Source of the DNA: an uncultured bacterium
GTDB taxonomy: Bacteria > Patescibacteriota > Microgenomatia > UBA1400 > UBA12108
Assembly (NCBI GenBank): GCA_903945195.1
Contig: CAJAUT010000023.1
Span: forward strand, 1-59,204
DNA: 59,204 bases
Reading direction: 5' to 3'
Part shown: positions 795 to 13,843 of the stretch, one piece after another
Position numbering within the stretch: position 1 is the stretch's first letter
Layout: every line of letters starts with the position of its first letter
Program-made: the position numbers and the translations under genes
Notes under the pieces: generated by a model
The model's database searches: none
The model's input: the letters and a program-made list of their open reading frames with translations, nothing else
Told to the model about the DNA's origin: nothing

Positions 795-1427
795 CTAGTT
801 TTGTATAGCGGTGGCGGTGACGATGAGGCGGGAGAGCGTGGTGCCTGGTGGCCAGCAAGTCATGAGAGTGAGAGTCTCGCTAGGCATGATCCTGGTAAGT
901 GGTGCTGTGCTACCTGGTGAGACAAACTCCTTACTTTTGACCTCGTATTTGTACTGCTGACCCTGATACCAGATATCTACTGTGTCACCTGCATCTAGGT
1001 GATGAATCAGATAAAAAACAGAGTTGTAGCGCTCGGCGGTAAGTAAATCGGTAGAACTATGGGCAAAAAGGAAGATATTGCCACCCTCTCCAGGAAGCTT
1101 GGTGCCTTTGGCGTGAGCGATCCCCTTGGACAAGGCCAGCTGATATTTCTTACTATCAAAGGCGTCTACATTTGCGATGACCTGTGAGGTAATACCTAGC
1201 TTCTCGATGAGGATAGAAAAATCTTTGTTTACAGGCTGCAAATTGTCTGCACGAGCTTTGGTATGCATAGCATACTTGATCTCATTTTTTAGTGGATCGT
1301 TAAAAATCCGCACGAGTAAGTACGATGAGAAAATGATCAGCACTAAACCAGTGAGACCCAAGACTTTGCCAAGTAGATCACCTGGCCATATTTTTGTTGC
1401 GCGAGATGGCATAGATGATTGCGACAA
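795..1427 (-). CDS. sortase
   Basis: A 210-residue sortase: an N-terminal membrane anchor at about residues 20-41, then a sortase barrel with the catalytic triad visible as H123 (in LFAHSS), C191 (in TCWPPGTTLSR) and R200. Sortases cleave LPxTG-type signals and transfer the protein to a cell-envelope nucleophile. The probable substrate is the preceding gene, which carries LPATG. The start is a TTG at 1427 with GGAG six bases upstream, and it overlaps the end of the surface-protein gene by 50 nt, which suggests translational coupling. An ATG five codons later is an alternative start. Confidence 0.9.
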   Translation of the reverse strand: MSQSSMPSRATKIWPGDLLGKVLGLTGLVLIIFSSYLLVRIFNDPLKNEIKYAMHTKARADNLQPVNKDFSILIEKLGITSQVIANVDAFDSKKYQLALSKGIAHAKGTKLPGEGGNIFLFAHSSTDLLTAERYNSVFYLIHHLDAGDTVDIWYQGQQYKYEVKSKEFVSPGSTAPLTRIMPSETLTLMTCWPPGTTLSRLIVTATAIQN

Positions 1428-2355
1428 TCCCTACTCCTAGTAGGATCCATAAATATTTTGTATTCTTGTTGCCTAGATCTTGCTCTTCACCTAGTACTTC
1501 TCCAGCACTAGCCTCTGGAGTCTCAAGAGCTGGTTCTGTATCTGCTGGCTGCTCTTCTTCACCCTCTTCTGTCTTGTTGCCTAAGATACTGCCAGCTGCT
1601 CTTGTAAGGACAATAGCTGGAGTGGTAGAAGAGGTAGTGGTATTTGATGAAGTAGAAGAAATGATAACCTCGTCGCCGCGATGACTCGACTGATTGCCAG
1701 AAGCATCGAAGGCGCGGATCACGTAGTACCATTCTCTATCGCAGTTGTCGGCTCTATCATGGGTGAATGTTCCATCCTGATTTGAGCCGATATTTACAGT
1801 GCCTACTCTATGGTCACTATTTGTATCAAAAGTCTTGGAGTCGGAACTGTAGATCTCTACTTTTGAAGTAGCTCCGCCGTCATCGGCTGTGTGGAATTTG
1901 ATGACGTATTTGCAGCTTGAAGGATGTTCTTTAGAGTAATAGTTTGGTTCACCTGGACCACTAGTGTCGTATTTAACAGTGACAGTCTGACTGCTTTCAG
2001 AATTTGAGCCTGAGGTGGCAGTCACATAAAACTGATACTCACCTTCTTGTGACATGACAGAGCTATCTACCTTGCAACTAGCATTGTCACCTGATGCTTT
2101 GATAGAAGTGTGTGCCACATCGAAACTAGTAAATAGTGAAGCTCCTGGCTTCTTTACGTAACAATTTACGACCGGAGTGAGAGTTGCACGATCAAGTACG
2201 GAGTATGACAACTTCCAGTCAGCTATCCTCATGGGACTGGCTGGCTGCTCGATACGGACAGAGAGATTGTTGTCTGGGTCTGCAGCGAGAGTACGAGGGG
2301 CAAAACTAAGTAGTGAGGCAAGTACAACTATAGCCATGAATGATTTTTTGAACAT
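1378..2355 (-). other. internal start and second secreted protein within the surface-protein gene
   Basis: At 2355 an in-frame ATG (MFKKSF) is preceded by GGAGG four bases upstream, although the upstream frame is still open. The sequence from here is a complete secreted protein of 325 residues: positively charged start, hydrophobic core, a signal-peptidase-like site ending TLA before ADP, two Ig-like regions, an acidic linker and a C-terminal membrane helix followed by basic residues. I read this as a second gene, or an alternative initiation site, whose upstream neighbour lacks a stop codon. That both products are made is inference. Confidence 0.5.
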
Positions 2356-5300
2356 TTTGCCTCCAAAGATAAATAGTAGACCTGTCAGTAGTGAGCCTAA
2401 GGCTAGGTAGAGCCAACCTGTATCTACACCTGTAGCTGGGAGGATCTCGGTAGAGACACCTAGTACGTCGCCTGTTTGTCTCTCTATTGCTACGCTTCCA
2501 GTCTGTTGATAATTTTTGTTTACTGCGACTGTGGTACCTACAAAGGTTCCATCATTGAGTGGAGATTCTATGCCTAGAGCTAGAATCTTATTACCAAAGG
2601 ATGCACTATCCCCACTGGCCCAAGCAGTGTCTTCATAGTTTCCAGCATCGATTCCATCTTGGATTTTGGCATAGTAGGAAAGTTCCATGGTGTCGCCTGC
2701 TTCTAGACTATCTATGTTCCAGGTACCTGGTGAGCCGTAATCTGGAGCGTCTACGGAGTATGGCATGCCGTTTAAAGTAGCCGACCATGACCCTGCGACA
2801 TATTCAAACCCTTCTGGAGTGACATCTGTCACGTTGATGTTTGTCATATCACTGTTTTCTAAATGCAGTGTCAACTTGTAACCAACCAAGTCTCCACCAT
2901 TTTTGCTCCCTGTGGCATCGTTGGATTTTTTAATGGTGAGATTTGGCTCTTCTTGATTGCCAAAGTTATATTCTGGAGCATAAATACCATTTTGAGTTTT
3001 TTCGTCATCATTTGGAAGAGAGATATCGTGACAGTAAGTAGTGCGCATCTCATCTTCTTCATCATCAAATGATTGATTCTTTGGATATGTCTGATTCCAA
3101 CCATCTTTTGCTACTTCGCAAATTGAATAGGTACCAGGGAATAGATCTTCAAATTTGTACCATCCAAAATCTTCACTCTCCTTATCATTGATGGTATTTA
3201 CTGATAGCTCATCTCCATCGAGCTCCTCATTGCGATTTGTGTCTAGGAATATAGTCCAGTCACCTAAGAGACTTTCTTCTTTCCCTTCTCCTTTTCGACC
3301 GTCGCCATTTATGTCATTCCACTTGTAGCCATGGATGTCGATAAGTGGAGCATTACCAAAGTCATATGAGCGATATTCGCCATAACCTGTACCTGAGTTG
3401 ATCTCAATACTGTACGAACCAAACTCTGGCTCAGTTCTTTTGTAGTTTGCATCTGATTCATCTTCGGTCACTATATAATCACCATGCTCTAGGCCTGTAA
3501 ATTCGTAGTAACCGTCAGAGCTTGTGTGTACACAATTTTTTTTATCTAAAAGAATACGACTTTCTGAGTTATCTGTTGCTAGACAGATCTCCCAGTTACT
3601 TATCCCATATTCTCCTTGATCCCAATTTCCATCGCCGTTTATGTCTTTGTATTTAAATCCACTAATACTACCAAGCTCAAAGTTGCCAAAATTGTTTTTA
3701 GTAGAATCTAGTCCTGCTGACAATATGACTGCGGAAGGAGCGGAAGTCTGCAACCAACCTGGCAATAGTGTTTCTAATAGTGAATATGTTCCTGGCAATA
3801 GACCAGTAAAACTATATGCACCAAAGATATCTGTTGTCGTACTATGAATTTCTTTGTCGCTCTGCAATAAGGAAATTACCCAACCGGCAGCAACATCTTC
3901 ATCCTTATCCCAGAAACCATCACCATCTAGATCTTCCCATTTGAAACCTGAAATTGACCCTAGCTTGGTATTGGTAAATACGCAAGTCACTGTTTCTCCT
4001 GGCTGTAGACTAATTGCACTGTAAAGGCTACCGTCAGAACAGGTTGTGTCAGTGAGAGTCCAGCCTGATTGCGCATTCTCGGATACTGAGTAAGTGCCTG
4101 GCATGAGATATCCACTATCATTTGTCTCACCGTCACTTAATGAAAATACATCTTCGTGATAACTTGCTGCAAAACCAAAACTAGCTTTTTCTTCTGCGTC
4201 TGGTAAAGTTTGCTTTTCAATAATAATTTTGCCCATCTGGATGTTGCCAAAATTTACGCTTGCTGACTGTCCTTCAGAAGTGAGAGATACTGCTATGCAA
4301 GCATTATCTGCTGGACTTGTTTGAACCCAGCCAGTTTGAGGTTGTTCACAGATTGTGTAGATACCAAATGGGACATCGCTAAATGTGAAGCCATTAATAG
4401 TACTGGTAGCTTCTTTTATTTTTGCTCCTAATGAATTTTTAAGGTCAAATTTCCACCCAGATAATAAGGCCTCGCCGTCATCTCTGACGCCATTCCCGTC
4501 TAGGTCATTGAATTTAATCCCATCAATTTTGCCATTTGCTGGATTAATAATGACTTCGTCTTTACAGGTATTATTATCTTCTCTACTTTCACGAATCTTA
4601 GTGTCTGGATCTACCTTACAGATACCATTTGATCTAGGATTTTCATATGTACCAGCAACTGAGAAGGTCGCTGTGAAAGAGATTTCTAGGTAACCACCTG
4701 CTTTTATGGTAAATGTTTTATCGTCATCATCTTCCACTTTACACTTAAGGTTCTTCGCAGAATCTATCGAACAACTTAAATTATCATACTTGTTGATATT
4801 TGCATAACTATATTTTAATGAGCCATACGCAACATTTGAATCAGGTAAGTTGTCAGTGAATATTTTTTCATCTTCCTCAAATATCACATCTTTAGTACCA
4901 ATATTTTCGATCCTTATTTTCCAGGTGAAAGATGACCCTAAGTTAATTGAGCTTAATGGAGTGTGAGTTTTTGTGACGATGAGATCTGGTTCAGAAGATA
5001 TATTACAGTCATTATAATAAATCGCTTTCCCCGCATCATCCCAATTTTGACCTGCGTAAGATCCTCCATTATATGAAAAAGGTGGAATAATATCACCCCA
5101 ACTATGATCTGGAATACCAAAATACCATACTGGACCATCATGATCATCGTGACCATGAACGTCTGCGGACTTAGCTGGACTTTCAACATTGTATGGATTA
5201 GTTTGACTATCATGAGCATGACAAATTTTTATTTTGTTATCCGTATCCGTAAAAGTAATTGTAGCTATGAGGGTAGTAGATAAAAATGCCTCAACCTTGT

Positions 5301-6039
5301 AGTTGGGGCGGTAGATACCGTCTAGTTGGTAGGCATAAAAAAGCTTGCCAGTCTCGTCGGATTGCACATCAACTGTAGTCGAAGTTGCTGGCAAGTCGGT
5401 TGAGGAGATGGTGAGTGAGTAAAGAGTATTTGGGATAAAGCCAGCACCAGTGATGAGAGCGGTGTCGGTGGGTGCGTAATCTAGCTTGTCGGTCGAGAGC
5501 ACGGCAGAACCAGTCTCTGTGACAGTCAAATCTATCTCGCTAATTGAAGTGGCTATGGTATTGCCTACAACTGTAATCTGGAGCTGTTCGTTTTGGTCGG
5601 TCACGACTGGTGAAGATACGGGTGAAGGAGGTGCGGGTGAAGAATCGGCTGATGGGGCTACGGAAGAGAGTGGAGTATCTAATGGGGCGGGAGAAGAGGT
5701 AGGAGACGAAGAAGGATCCACGGAAGGCAAGACCGATGCTACTGGCGTAGGTGTGGCAATAACTTCTGGTGTGGCTGATGGTAAGACAGAAGGCTCAACT
5801 GAAGAAGCATCAGATGGCGTAGCTGTAGTCTCTACAGTAGCAACTGGTGTTGGAGCTGGGGTGGACTCTACTACTGGAGGCTGATCTACAGTTGGTACTT
5901 CTTGAGCTACAGCGTAAGAGGGAGACAAAACTGGAGCCATAGCCATGGCAATAAAAGCGGGCTGTAGGATGTTTAAGAAAAGTGAGAAGAGTGAAGAGAC
6001 AGCAAAAACTTTCTTTTGTAACTTGAATGTGTTTGACAT
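1378..6039 (-). CDS. LPxTG surface protein with SdrD-B-like repeats, fused in frame to a second secreted protein
   Basis: A 1553-residue secreted protein with a strong start (AGGAG six bases before ATG). It has a signal peptide at about 1-46, then a Ser/Pro/Thr-rich stalk to about 150. Next come a CARDB/DUF11-like domain and four SdrD-B-like modules (each with DxNGDGxxD-type calcium loops, for example DLDGNGVRDDGE and DINGDGNWDQGE), then a DUF11-like domain. LPATG lies at about 1200-1204, followed by a hydrophobic helix and GGK. The frame does not stop there. A second signal peptide starts at M1229, followed by Ig-like domains, an acidic tail and a C-terminal membrane helix. The topology is self-consistent as one chain (out, in, out, in). 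It is probably attached by the downstream sortase. Confidence 0.88.
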   Translation of the reverse strand: MSNTFKLQKKVFAVSSLFSLFLNILQPAFIAMAMAPVLSPSYAVAQEVPTVDQPPVVESTPAPTPVATVETTATPSDASSVEPSVLPSATPEVIATPTPVASVLPSVDPSSSPTSSPAPLDTPLSSVAPSADSSPAPPSPVSSPVVTDQNEQLQITVVGNTIATSISEIDLTVTETGSAVLSTDKLDYAPTDTALITGAGFIPNTLYSLTISSTDLPATSTTVDVQSDETGKLFYAYQLDGIYRPNYKVEAFLSTTLIATITFTDTDNKIKICHAHDSQTNPYNVESPAKSADVHGHDDHDGPVWYFGIPDHSWGDIIPPFSYNGGSYAGQNWDDAGKAIYYNDCNISSEPDLIVTKTHTPLSSINLGSSFTWKIRIENIGTKDVIFEEDEKIFTDNLPDSNVAYGSLKYSYANINKYDNLSCSIDSAKNLKCKVEDDDDKTFTIKAGGYLEISFTATFSVAGTYENPRSNGICKVDPDTKIRESREDNNTCKDEVIINPANGKIDGIKFNDLDGNGVRDDGEALLSGWKFDLKNSLGAKIKEATSTINGFTFSDVPFGIYTICEQPQTGWVQTSPADNACIAVSLTSEGQSASVNFGNIQMGKIIIEKQTLPDAEEKASFGFAASYHEDVFSLSDGETNDSGYLMPGTYSVSENAQSGWTLTDTTCSDGSLYSAISLQPGETVTCVFTNTKLGSISGFKWEDLDGDGFWDKDEDVAAGWVISLLQSDKEIHSTTTDIFGAYSFTGLLPGTYSLLETLLPGWLQTSAPSAVILSAGLDSTKNNFGNFELGSISGFKYKDINGDGNWDQGEYGISNWEICLATDNSESRILLDKKNCVHTSSDGYYEFTGLEHGDYIVTEDESDANYKRTEPEFGSYSIEINSGTGYGEYRSYDFGNAPLIDIHGYKWNDINGDGRKGEGKEESLLGDWTIFLDTNRNEELDGDELSVNTINDKESEDFGWYKFEDLFPGTYSICEVAKDGWNQTYPKNQSFDDEEDEMRTTYCHDISLPNDDEKTQNGIYAPEYNFGNQEEPNLTIKKSNDATGSKNGGDLVGYKLTLHLENSDMTNINVTDVTPEGFEYVAGSWSATLNGMPYSVDAPDYGSPGTWNIDSLEAGDTMELSYYAKIQDGIDAGNYEDTAWASGDSASFGNKILALGIESPLNDGTFVGTTVAVNKNYQQTGSVAIERQTGDVLGVSTEILPATGVDTGWLYLALGSLLTGLLFIFGGKMFKKSFMAIVVLASLLSFAPRTLAADPDNNLSVRIEQPASPMRIADWKLSYSVLDRATLTPVVNCYVKKPGASLFTSFDVAHTSIKASGDNASCKVDSSVMSQEGEYQFYVTATSGSNSESSQTVTVKYDTSGPGEPNYYSKEHPSSCKYVIKFHTADDGGATSKVEIYSSDSKTFDTNSDHRVGTVNIGSNQDGTFTHDRADNCDREWYYVIRAFDASGNQSSHRGDEVIISSTSSNTTTSSTTPAIVLTRAAGSILGNKTEEGEEEQPADTEPALETPEASAGEVLGEEQDLGNKNTKYLWILLGVGIVAIIYAISRNKNMAR

Positions 6040-6445: not shown

Positions 6446-6695
6446 TTTTGTCGCCAATATTTATTTGTTAATTCTAAGATTATACCTTAGAAAGTGAAGA
6501 GTAAGATTACAGTATCAAGCTATTCGTTTGATCATGCGGTCGCCTGAGGCGACCCGCCAGTCACCATAGATTATGATGTTGGCGGACAGGTTAGCTAAAC
6601 ACATTGCTGTGCGTACACTTCCTGCCGATAACCTGGTGGTCTTCCAGGGATCTAACGTCATCTTACGATGACAAGGAATTCTCATCTTGGGGCGT

Positions 6696-6959: not shown

Positions 6960-7250
6960 CAAAATACATAGATGTTAGATAAGGTGTATATGGATCTCAA
7001 TTATTACTAATTGTTTGGACTATATCTTTAATACTTTCATTCATAAAACCACGGAATGATTTAGTATATGTTGGCGTATTATAGCGATATCTAGTCGCTA
7101 TCTCTCGCCTGAGGCGAGAAGTCTCTACGGGGGGTGTATACAGCTATGCTGTTATACGCCCTTCCCACGGTGTTAGCCTAAAGTGTTCAATCTTAGGTAT
7201 TCTCCGTTATAAGCCAAATTTATTTCCTCGACATGTTTTGGGTATTTTCT
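6960..7250 (-). ncRNA. group I intron in 23S rRNA after U2504 (E. coli numbering), no ORF
   Basis: 23S sequence breaks between CCTCGAT (exon 1, ends 7251) and GTCGGCTC (exon 2, begins 6959). The intron begins at 7250 and ends with G at 6960. The exon end CCTCGAT pairs over 7 bp with GTCGAGG, found 19 nt into the intron, with a U.G pair at the cleavage site, which is the standard group I P1 helix. An S-type element (AAGATATAGTCC, 7017-7028) and an R-type element (GTAGAGACTT, about 7119-7128) are present. The intron is 291 nt and has no reading frame, so it should be a self-splicing ribozyme that depends on other sources for mobility. It lies in the peptidyl-transferase centre by my alignment. 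Confidence 0.88.
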
Positions 7251-7650
7251 ATCGAGGTAGCGAACTGCACCGTCGCTGTGGACGCTCAGGTGCAACTACT
7301 CTGTTATCCCCGGGGTAGCTTTTATCCGATAAGCCCGGTACCTCCCACGAAGTACACGAGGATCACTAGGTCCGACTTTCGTCTCTGCTTGACTTGTATG
7401 TCTCACAGTCAGGCATCCTTATGCCCTTGCACTATCATTCCGATTTCCATCCGGAATTAGGATACCATTGCGCGCTTGCGGTACTCTTTAGCAAGCAACC
7501 TCCCCAGTTAAACTGCCTCCCAGACAGTGTCCTCTTTCTCGATCCAGAGAAATAAGTAAGAATCTCACGTTTCAAAGAGTGGTATTACAGTTGTCGCCTT
7601 GCGGCTCCCACCTATGCTACACAGTCAAAACATAAAATTCAGTGTCAAGG

Positions 7651-7815: not shown

Positions 7816-8551
7816 CACTTATGTTGATATATCAATCTAAATTGATACTCTTTATTATTTCTAATAAAGTCTTCACGTCGCCATGAAGGTCGGACTATAT
7901 CATGTCCTAATTAAATAGGACGTCGACATATAGTCTCTGAGGATTCTTAAATCACTTGATGATGTCACTGATGTTATATTTTCGTTTACGACTAGCTCCT
8001 GGGTTAAGAGTTTCTCTCAGCCTAACAATTTCGTGTAAACCCGCAATTTTTCTGTGACCCCCATCTTCCATTATTTTGGCTATTAGACAAAAAATATGAA
8101 AATTACTTTTCTTAGTCTTTGAAACTAGCGGATATTTTTGGAAAAAAGGAATTACTTTAAATATTACGTCCGTCGGATTGGTTACATCGAATGAAAAGAG
8201 TTGATCTCGCTTGCGTACTTTGATAATTCCACAGTTTAGGGTGGTTTGAAGTAATTTGAGTAATGCTGGGTCTTTTTGAGACACATTAAAACTCATTACG
8301 ACTTGCCACTTAACTGCGTAATCATCTTTTTTACGAAGCGAAACATTAAAACTCCCTTCACCCTCTGTAAATCCGGCGAGGAAATATCCCATTGCATCAT
8401 CTTGATAACCTAAGTCTTTCCTGCTGATTTTCCGCACTGTACGCATTTTCACTATGATATTAATTTACCATAGTAGCGACAGATACTACAACCGCTTGTG
8501 CGGTACGGGGATTCCAGCAAATAGTCGACTTTTATAACTACAATTTTGTTC
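7816..8551 (-). ncRNA. group I intron in 23S rRNA after U1917, with LAGLIDADG ORF
   Basis: Helix 69 sequence GTAACTAT (ends 8552) is separated from AACTGTTCTATGG (begins 7815) by 736 nt. The intron ends with G. Exon TAACTAT pairs with GTAGTTA ten nucleotides into the intron, ending in the U.G pair expected of group I P1. An R-type element (CAGAGACTATA, about 7930-7940) and an S-type element (GATATAGTCC, about 7893-7902) lie together near the 3' end, downstream of the endonuclease gene. The insertion site corresponds to position 1917 of E. coli 23S by local alignment. Group I introns with LAGLIDADG genes are known near here in other bacteria. Confidence 0.88.
7952..8452 (-). CDS. LAGLIDADG homing endonuclease, single-motif, in the 23S intron
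   Basis: A 166-residue protein with one LAGLIDADG motif at residues 22-35 (FLAGFTEGEGSF, with the metal-binding acidic residue near its end). One-motif family members act as homodimers and cut intronless rRNA genes at the insertion site, which spreads the intron. The gene lies inside the intron at 7816-8551 on the same strand as the rRNA. The initiator is the first ATG of the frame, but M21 (MGYFLAGF) is an equally good start close to the domain edge. No stop or frameshift interrupts it, so it may be active. Confidence 0.92.
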   Translation of the reverse strand: MKMRTVRKISRKDLGYQDDAMGYFLAGFTEGEGSFNVSLRKKDDYAVKWQVVMSFNVSQKDPALLKLLQTTLNCGIIKVRKRDQLFSFDVTNPTDVIFKVIPFFQKYPLVSKTKKSNFHIFCLIAKIMEDGGHRKIAGLHEIVRLRETLNPGASRKRKYNISDIIK

Positions 8552-11310: not shown

Positions 11311-11382
11311 GGGCGCGTAGTTCAGTGGTAGAACGCTTTCCTGATAAGAAAGAGGTCCATAGTTCGATTCTATGTGCGCCCA
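11311..11382 (+). tRNA. tRNA-Ile(GAT), on the strand opposite to the rRNA
   Basis: A 72-nt cloverleaf: acceptor GGGCGCG/TGCGCCC, D arm GTTCAGTGGTAGAAC, anticodon stem CTTTC/GAAAG with loop CTGATAA (anticodon GAT), and T loop TTCGATT. CCA is not encoded. It lies in the 16S-23S spacer, where tRNA-Ile is common, but reads against the rRNA genes, so it must have its own promoter. Confidence 0.95.
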
Positions 11383-11394
11383 CTCCAGATCATC

Positions 11395-11801: not shown

Positions 11802-12281
11802 CTAGACCAGGGCCAGGGCGACGACATAGTTTTTGCCATACACCTTTAGACACTTGGGACAGGTGGTGTAGTAGAGGTAGACCTTGTTCGTCGTATTCAT
11901 GGACTTGATCCACTTGGGTGCATCCTGAAAGGGACCCTCAAAAACTTTGGTTTTGAACTTGCCAGTTAGTTTGATGTTCTCTTGGCCTTTAACCTCTTTG
12001 GTGACTGAGAGTAAATGCTCGCATTTCCAGGGCGAGAGATCGTAGCTCATCAAGATAAATTCATCTTTGGAGTCGGCCTTGGCTTTGGTAATTTCTGCCC
12101 AAGTATTGGTCATCATTTTGTTCATATCTAGAGGCATATAGAAAAAGCTGTGAGTGTAGGCGCGGACAAAGGGTTTGTTTTTGAACTCAAAGGTCTTGCC
12201 GTCCCAGTCTTTAGAATTGAAGCGTGGACAGCAACCTGTTTCATTGTCTTTGCTTAGTTTTGGAACATGATTTAGGGTCAT
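11802..12281 (-). CDS. conserved protein of the family often annotated as bacterial hydrolase
   Basis: A 159-residue soluble protein. It resembles a family I know mainly from clostridia and CPR genomes, recognisable by a CCPRF start region, an FVRAYTHSFFYMPLDM block, SPWKCEHLLSVTKEV, FKTKVFEGPF and a C-terminal YYTTCPKCLKVYGKNYVVALA. Database entries often call it hydrolase, but I know of no established activity. The CxxC pair and upstream Cys residues could bind metal. I start it at the ATG at 12281 because GGAGG lies five bases before it. The frame stays open further upstream, but that extension has no such signal. It is unusual to find a protein gene between 16S and 23S. Confidence 0.8.
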   Translation of the reverse strand: MTLNHVPKLSKDNETGCCPRFNSKDWDGKTFEFKNKPFVRAYTHSFFYMPLDMNKMMTNTWAEITKAKADSKDEFILMSYDLSPWKCEHLLSVTKEVKGQENIKLTGKFKTKVFEGPFQDAPKWIKSMNTTNKVYLYYTTCPKCLKVYGKNYVVALALV

Positions 12282-12345
12282 GTGACCTCCATCAAATATG
12301 TTTGTTTGGTAATAGTTTAAGTATATACCTGAAGTAAATCCCACG

Positions 12346-12380
12346 AAAAATACCCCGGGCAACTTTGGTTGCTTTAGGGG
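12346..12380 (-). terminator. probable terminator downstream of 16S
   Basis: On the minus strand CCCC-TAAA-GCAAC-CAAA-GTTGC-CC-GGGG forms an interrupted hairpin followed by TATTTTT. It lies just past the 16S processing stem and before the hydrolase-like gene. Confidence 0.55.
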
Positions 12381-12579: not shown

Positions 12580-13285
12580 CATGTTTATTCCCCGACTTTC
12601 GTGGGGCATGGACTATATCTTCATCCTTGATATAAACGAAAGTATTTCTTTTTGTCTGGATGTGATGATCCGATAGTTGTAATAAAACTTTTATAACTAT
12701 CAGCTTTGACAAAGAATCTCCAATATTTTGGATCAATGTTCCTACTTGGATTATGAATAATCCCAGTGTGAATACTAAATTCCTCAAGTATTGTTTTGAT
12801 CTGATTTAGATCATCAAAATTCTTTTGTGCAAAGTATATATAGAACCGAACTTTCGAAGATTTGGCTATGCCTCCTTCTGCATCGAAATAACCTCGGACA
12901 TAATCAAGTTTATCTTGATCTGTTTTTATAGTTGTTTCGAGTAGAAGGGATTGAGAAAACTCTGTGATGTAAACATCACGTAGTTTTCCTTCTTGGTATA
13001 TCCAAGCTCTTCCACTTAGTCGTTTGATCCCTAGTGACAACATTTTTGCAAATGCCATCCCTTTTTGGGCAATACGATATGTGGTTTTGCGTTTGGTCCC
13101 ATCATGTAACATTCCAAGCAAATATGCTTTCGTAATATAAGGCGCTTGCGTATAGTCTCTACGGAGTCCTTGATTTTTATTTCGAGGTTCCCTCGGTATT
13201 CCCATGGTCCTATTATAGAACTTTAGGCTTCACCGATACAGCAAGATTTATCAAAAAAATTACTTTTTTTGGTCGCAACATATAT
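12580..13285 (-). ncRNA. group I intron in 16S rRNA after U1498 (decoding site), with LAGLIDADG ORF
   Basis: 16S sequence AAGTCGT (ending 13286) and AACAAGGTA (starting 12579) are contiguous in other bacteria but lie 706 nt apart here. The intron ends with G. Exon GTCGT pairs with GCGAC ten nucleotides into the intron, ending in a U.G pair, as expected for group I P1. An R-type element (GTAGAGACTATACGC, about 13149-13163) and an S-type element (AAGATATAGTCC, about 12609-12620) flank most of the endonuclease gene. The site corresponds to 1498/1499, six bases from A1492-A1493, and it splits the site of the widely used 1492R primer. Confidence 0.88.
12621..13205 (-). CDS. LAGLIDADG homing endonuclease, two-motif, in the 16S intron
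   Basis: A 194-residue protein with two LAGLIDADG-type motifs, YLLGMLHDG at about 28-36 and DYVRGYFDAEGG at about 101-112. Two-motif members act as monomers and cut an asymmetric site. The first motif is degenerate (LHDG in place of FDAEG), but an acidic residue is kept. The first 20 codons overlap the R element of the ribozyme and the stop overlaps the S element, so RNA structure and coding sequence share bases. The start codon is an ATG without an obvious ribosome-binding site. It is expected to home the intron into intronless 16S genes, and a splicing (maturase) role is possible. Confidence 0.9.
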   Translation of the reverse strand: MGIPREPRNKNQGLRRDYTQAPYITKAYLLGMLHDGTKRKTTYRIAQKGMAFAKMLSLGIKRLSGRAWIYQEGKLRDVYITEFSQSLLLETTIKTDQDKLDYVRGYFDAEGGIAKSSKVRFYIYFAQKNFDDLNQIKTILEEFSIHTGIIHNPSRNIDPKYWRFFVKADSYKSFITTIGSSHPDKKKYFRLYQG

Positions 13286-13843
13286 ACGACTTAGCGCTCA
13301 TCGCTGACCTTACCTTAGGTGGGCTCATCTCTTGCGAGTTTGAGACACCAACTTCAGGTACTGCCAACTTTGCTCACTTGACGGGCGGTGTGTACAAGGA
13401 GCGAGAACGTATTCACCGCAGCCTGCTGATCTGCGATTACTACCGATTCCGACTTCATGAGGGCGAGTTGCAGCCCTCAATCTGAACTGAGGGAAGTTTT
13501 AAAGGATTGGCTCCCCATTACTGGTTGGCTACCCATTGTACTTCCCATTGTAGGATGTGTGTGGCCCCAGGTGTAAGCGTCATGCTGACTTGACGTCGTC
13601 CCCTCCTTCCTCCCTTGATACTATCAAGAGCAGTCTCGCGTGAAAATTCAACACACGATAGGGGTTGCGTTCGTTATTCTACTTAAAGAAACGTCTCACG
13701 ACACGAACTGACGACAGCCATGCAACAGCTGTATATCACTCTCGAAGAAGTCCAGCTTTCGCTGGATTTGCAGATATATTAAACCTGGGTGAGGTCTTTC
13801 GCTTTGTATCGAATTAAACCACATGCTCCACCGGTTGTGCGCT

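Follow-up and report, generated by a model that had tools for sequence, protein, structure and literature searches.

A predicted group IA intron without an endonuclease gene at position 2504 of the 23S rRNA in a Patescibacteria genome

A 2024 survey of rRNA introns in Patescibacteria (Tsurumaki et al. 2024, PMC11270868) reports in its main text that 82% of 23S genes carry inserts and that 222 ORF-less group I introns in these genes are clustered around the peptidyl-transferase center. The introns designated there as 23IS6-14 are, like the intron described here, group I introns around this center, and a given site may hold them with or without an ORF, as we also find at L2504. The L2504 intron could correspond to one of 23IS9-11, whose positions are not stated in the main text. 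At the same insertion site, the Cryptococcus mitochondrial introns Cne.mL2504 and Cga.mL2504 (PMC5808193) also coexist in forms with LAGLIDADG_2 (1,032 bp) and without it (344-417 bp); their hosts differ, being fungal mitochondria, and the likeness is one of site and gene content. With respect to structure, the group IA2 introns of IStrons (PMC4227781) and of phage Pf-WMP3 (PMC3428280) carry a pair of additional hairpins, P7.1 and P7.2, after the 5' strand of P7 and before P3', as does the intron described here; this pair typifies subgroup IA2 (PMC4227781, PMC3428280). The Pf-WMP3 intron also lacks P2. However, the IStron and Pf-WMP3 introns sit in IS elements or protein genes, whereas the L2504 intron sits in 23S and, unlike them, is short in its 3' domain, where a single P9 hairpin is clear.

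The stretch of DNA that was analyzed, referred to herein as the window, is the 59,204-nt contig CAJAUT010000023.1 of an uncultured bacterium (assembly GCA_903945195.1). The Rfam LSU match places its 23S gene at 10532-6560 on the minus strand, and no second 23S copy is present in the window. BLAST alignment with E. coli rrlB revealed exon blocks that correspond to E. coli positions 1918-2504 (window 7815-7251) and 2505-2878 (window 6959-6586). The blocks abut exactly after U2504, which confirms the placement of a 291-nt insert between U2504 and G2505 in the initial annotation with exact coordinates. A DNA search found the insert once in the 1.05-Mb genome. The longest stop-free run in any frame of the intron strand is 48 codons, and the annotated absence of an ORF, and with it of an endonuclease gene, therefore holds. 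The insert matches Rfam Intron_gpI with 32.4 bits (E 1e-6), below the gathering score of 50, which is a detection threshold and not a defining feature of group I introns; the other group I matches in the same rRNA operon likewise fall below 50 bits. The predicted fold is more stable than 100 of 100 shuffled sequences (z -4.55).

Several further features surround the insert. A second 23S intron (7816-8551, minus strand) follows E. coli position 1917 and encodes a 166-aa LAGLIDADG_1 endonuclease, and a 16S intron (about 12580-13290, minus strand) near E. coli position 1498 (exon ...AAGTCGTA / AACAAGG...) encodes a 194-aa LAGLIDADG_3 endonuclease. A tRNA-Ile(GAT) gene (11311-11383, plus strand) separates 16S from 23S but is oriented against the rRNA operon, and it adjoins a gene predicted to encode a hydrolase (11802-12362, minus strand). 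Directly downstream of the operon is an ORF of 1553 aa (1378-6039, minus strand), which by eye resembles a long repetitive surface protein.

The group I core of the L2504 intron is complete and includes P1, the P3, P4, P6 and P7 helices by which group I introns are recognized, P5, P8, a P9 capped by GUAA, and a terminal omega-G (Table 1). P1 pairs CCUCGAU with GUCGAGG over 7 bp, to which one A-U pair can be added. The annotated length of P1 was correct, and its description as perfect needs the qualification that six of the pairs are Watson-Crick and the seventh is the U·G at the splice site. In the latter, U2504 faces the G at 7232, which is invariant across the aligned alleles. P2 was not detectable in the intron, and a search for P10, or for any pairing of L1 with the 3' splice region, yielded nothing above shuffled sequences. 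The P9 domain contains one clear hairpin with an A+U-rich, variable remainder, compared with the extended P9.0, P9.1 and P9.2 of IA2 introns. On the basis of the P7.1 and P7.2 hairpins, which are predicted in all eight alleles described below, the intron is assigned to subgroup IA and is IA2-like.

Table 1. Coordinates of the L2504 intron, its predicted structural elements and the second palindrome copy (window numbering)
Feature	Position	Strand	Basis or remark
Group I intron L2504, 291 nt, ORF-less, IA-like	6960..7250	-	Exon blocks abutting E. coli 2504/2505; Rfam Intron_gpI; allelic homologues
P1 5' exon strand CCUCGAU, ending at U2504	7251..7257	-	
P1 internal guide strand GUCGAGG	7226..7232	-	Invariant across aligned alleles
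P3 5' strand UUGGC	7213..7217	-	Partner 7071-7075; compensatory GUGGC/GCCAC in G015
P4 5' strand ACGG	7204..7207	-	Partner 7167-7170; compensatory ACGA/UCGU in G031 group
P6 and loop, site of endonuclease gene in allele G015	7129..7166	-	
P7 5' strand G[A]GACU, guanosine-binding helix	7120..7125	-	Partner 7017-7021; compensatory change in G015
P7.1 hairpin, holds palindrome TCGCCTGAGGCGA	7103..7119	-	Hairpin kept with different sequence in relatives
P7.2 hairpin	7081..7101	-	
P3 3' strand GCCAA	7071..7075	-	
P8	7029..7070	-	
AAGAUAUAGUCC, includes P7 3' strand	7017..7028	-	Rfam alignment
P9 with GUAA tetraloop	6998..7013	-	Compensatory changes
Terminal guanosine (omega-G) at 3' splice site	6960	-	Conserved in 8/8 alleles
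Second TCGCCTGAGGCGA copy, in hairpin of 23S-5S spacer	6540..6552		

The palindrome TCGCCTGAGGCGA forms part of P7.1, a peripheral hairpin. The initial annotation located its other copy in the 23S gene; this is incorrect, as that copy falls past the 3' end of 23S, where the Rfam match ends at 6560. The 11-mer core of the palindrome occurs only twice in the genome. In a genome of the same family (G003), hairpins are present at both places with unrelated sequences, and the palindrome is thus not a conserved element; these observations rule out a repeat family. Because GACU occurs twice, at 7120-7123 and inside P7.2, we also considered that a mobile palindrome had inserted itself into the core; relatives that have P7.1 and P7.2 as normal hairpins at this location rule this out. 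A simple estimate gives 0.08 identical hairpin pairs per window by chance and 0.004 within the operon. The shared palindrome may be coincidental or may stem from copying of a short piece.

Searching the DNA of 88 genomes from the same order and scanning 84,980 species genomes for a pattern yielded, with the window intron counted and duplicates removed, eight allelic L2504 introns, all of them from Patescibacteria and including Candidatus Collierbacteria and Chisholmbacteria. These are the window intron, that of G003, a group of three (G031, G027 and G032), that of G022, one in record CALDOH010000097.1, and that of G015. The sequences of the group of three are identical to those in records labeled as Ca. 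Collierbacteria and Patescibacteria, and the G015 allele matches the available part of a Ca. Chisholmbacteria record. P1, P3 to P9 with the GUAA loop, omega-G and the two P7-P3' hairpins are common to all eight, and the window intron is 71-80% identical over aligned bases to the other ORF-less alleles. Insertion after U2504 and homology over the core place it in a Patescibacteria L2504 intron family, which, in a partial sample of 281 genomes from the class, was found only in the order of the host. A model of the 5' half of the intron gives the L2504 alleles 92-115 bits. No other match exceeds 50 bits, and many of these lower-scoring matches are introns elsewhere in 16S and 23S. A scan of the phylum with the P1 pattern gave seven matches, of which those in the host genome (G000) and G027 are true and two others that were inspected are not 23S. 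Two matches from the pattern scan in Hymenobacter had no 23S context and were rejected as chance.

Comparison of the alleles supports the predicted helices. In six representatives, all 144 core cells of the anchored helices are paired, a count that is biased towards the proposed structure because the anchors used to choose the strands follow it. In four pairs, one each in P3, P4, P7 and P9, both partners have changed. The share of paired cells, the tally of such double changes and the covariation score were not attained in any of 500 shuffles, and when partners were shifted by 1-3 columns only 28-58% of cells paired.

One allele differs in gene content. The G015 intron is 922 nt long and contains in its P6 loop a 227-aa ORF that matches LAGLIDADG_2 (Pfam E 9e-43). 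Given this allele, the short form is most simply explained as a homing intron that has probably lost its endonuclease, in line with what is described for Cryptococcus mL2504. A homologue of the G015 endonuclease was sought in the window's genome and none was found at E <= 10, whereas the same query, serving as a positive control, recovered G015 itself and 16 other genomes of the order. The only LAGLIDADG_2 match above cut-off in the host genome (G000:C33:1542-2021, L107) lies on another contig inside a 1038-aa open frame, possibly an intein.

Taken together, these data make it very likely that the insert is a group IA self-splicing intron and the endonuclease-free form of a homing intron. In the proposed pathway, the 23S precursor would fold P1 from the 5' exon and the internal guide, guanosine bound in P7 would attack after U2504, and the freed U2504 would then attack after omega-G. 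The exons would thereby join as ...CCUCGAU/GUCGGCUC..., which is the normal sequence of the catalytic center. Weighing against this reading are the Rfam score under the gathering cut-off, the lack of a P10 pairing above chance and the fact that, to go by the title of a work in the reference list of PMC11270868, some bacterial 23S group I introns stay unspliced. It is also possible, though we regard it as unlikely, that this group I intron splices only with the help of a host or intron-encoded protein. The lack of a detectable P2 and of a significant P10 is consistent with such help, and LAGLIDADG proteins, one of which is encoded by the G015 allele, can be maturases according to the main text of PMC11270868. 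However, most of the alleles were found without any protein, and the host genome has no counterpart of the G015 protein at the threshold given above.

The exact ligated-exon sequence ACCTCGATGTCGGCTC is uninterrupted in 32 of the 88 genomes of the order and is absent from the genome of the window; absence of the pattern does not prove that a genome has the intron, as the 23S of a bin may be incomplete or may have another insert nearby. In G001 and G002, which belong to the same family as the host, the stretch 2501-2782 is unbroken and the 2504 site is therefore intron-free, which makes the presence of the L2504 intron patchy. The comparison with intronless relatives that the initial annotation called for is thus available, and along with the homologues and compensatory changes it bears out the reading of the insert as an ORF-less group I intron. 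Both of these genomes carry another group I intron (L049 and L056) at about L2500, four nucleotides upstream of 2504. A LAGLIDADG_2 endonuclease of G002 that adjoins the model match at this intron is 44% identical to the L2504 endonuclease of G015.

The lack of a G015-type homologue in the host suggests that the window intron is at present immobile or reliant on an endonuclease from outside. The earlier expectation that mobility would require an outside protein thus agrees with the host genome, and it is refined by the finding that an allele at the same site encodes LAGLIDADG_2. Persistence would probably depend on vertical inheritance and splicing, or on occasional mobilization by the endonuclease of another genome. 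We consider it improbable that the intron is still being mobilized by an endonuclease from another locus, for example one that cuts the almost identical L2500/L2504 target. The L2500 introns of the sister genomes and the similarity of the G002 endonuclease would fit such a source, but the genome itself lacks a homologue at E <= 10, its single LAGLIDADG_2 match above cut-off is in the large frame noted above, and the L1917 and 16S introns encode different LAGLIDADG families. Still more speculatively, L2504 might be an intron site as yet undescribed in bacteria, and the L2500 and L2504 introns, with their related LAGLIDADG_2 endonucleases, might compete for one target, in which case the endonuclease-free L2504 intron could persist by blocking L2500 homing; we give this little weight.

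Finally, an intervening sequence cut by RNase III without religation, giving a fragmented 23S, is highly improbable: such sequences are common elsewhere in bacterial 23S and many short unclassified inserts are noted for Patescibacteria in the main text of PMC11270868, but here the group I core is complete and shows compensatory changes, removal restores the exon sequence exactly, and a break in the catalytic center would be expected to disable it.

Since introns of this kind are common in Patescibacteria, the L2504 intron is a well-supported but ordinary further example of those already catalogued. The ribosome of the host should depend on its accurate removal beside catalytic nucleotides, and the genome holds a single copy of the intron. 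The Patescibacteria allelic set parallels the L2504 introns of fungal mitochondria, and the empty site, the ORF-less and ORF-bearing alleles and the L2500 neighbor together offer a small natural set in which the homing cycle of Patescibacteria introns can be studied.
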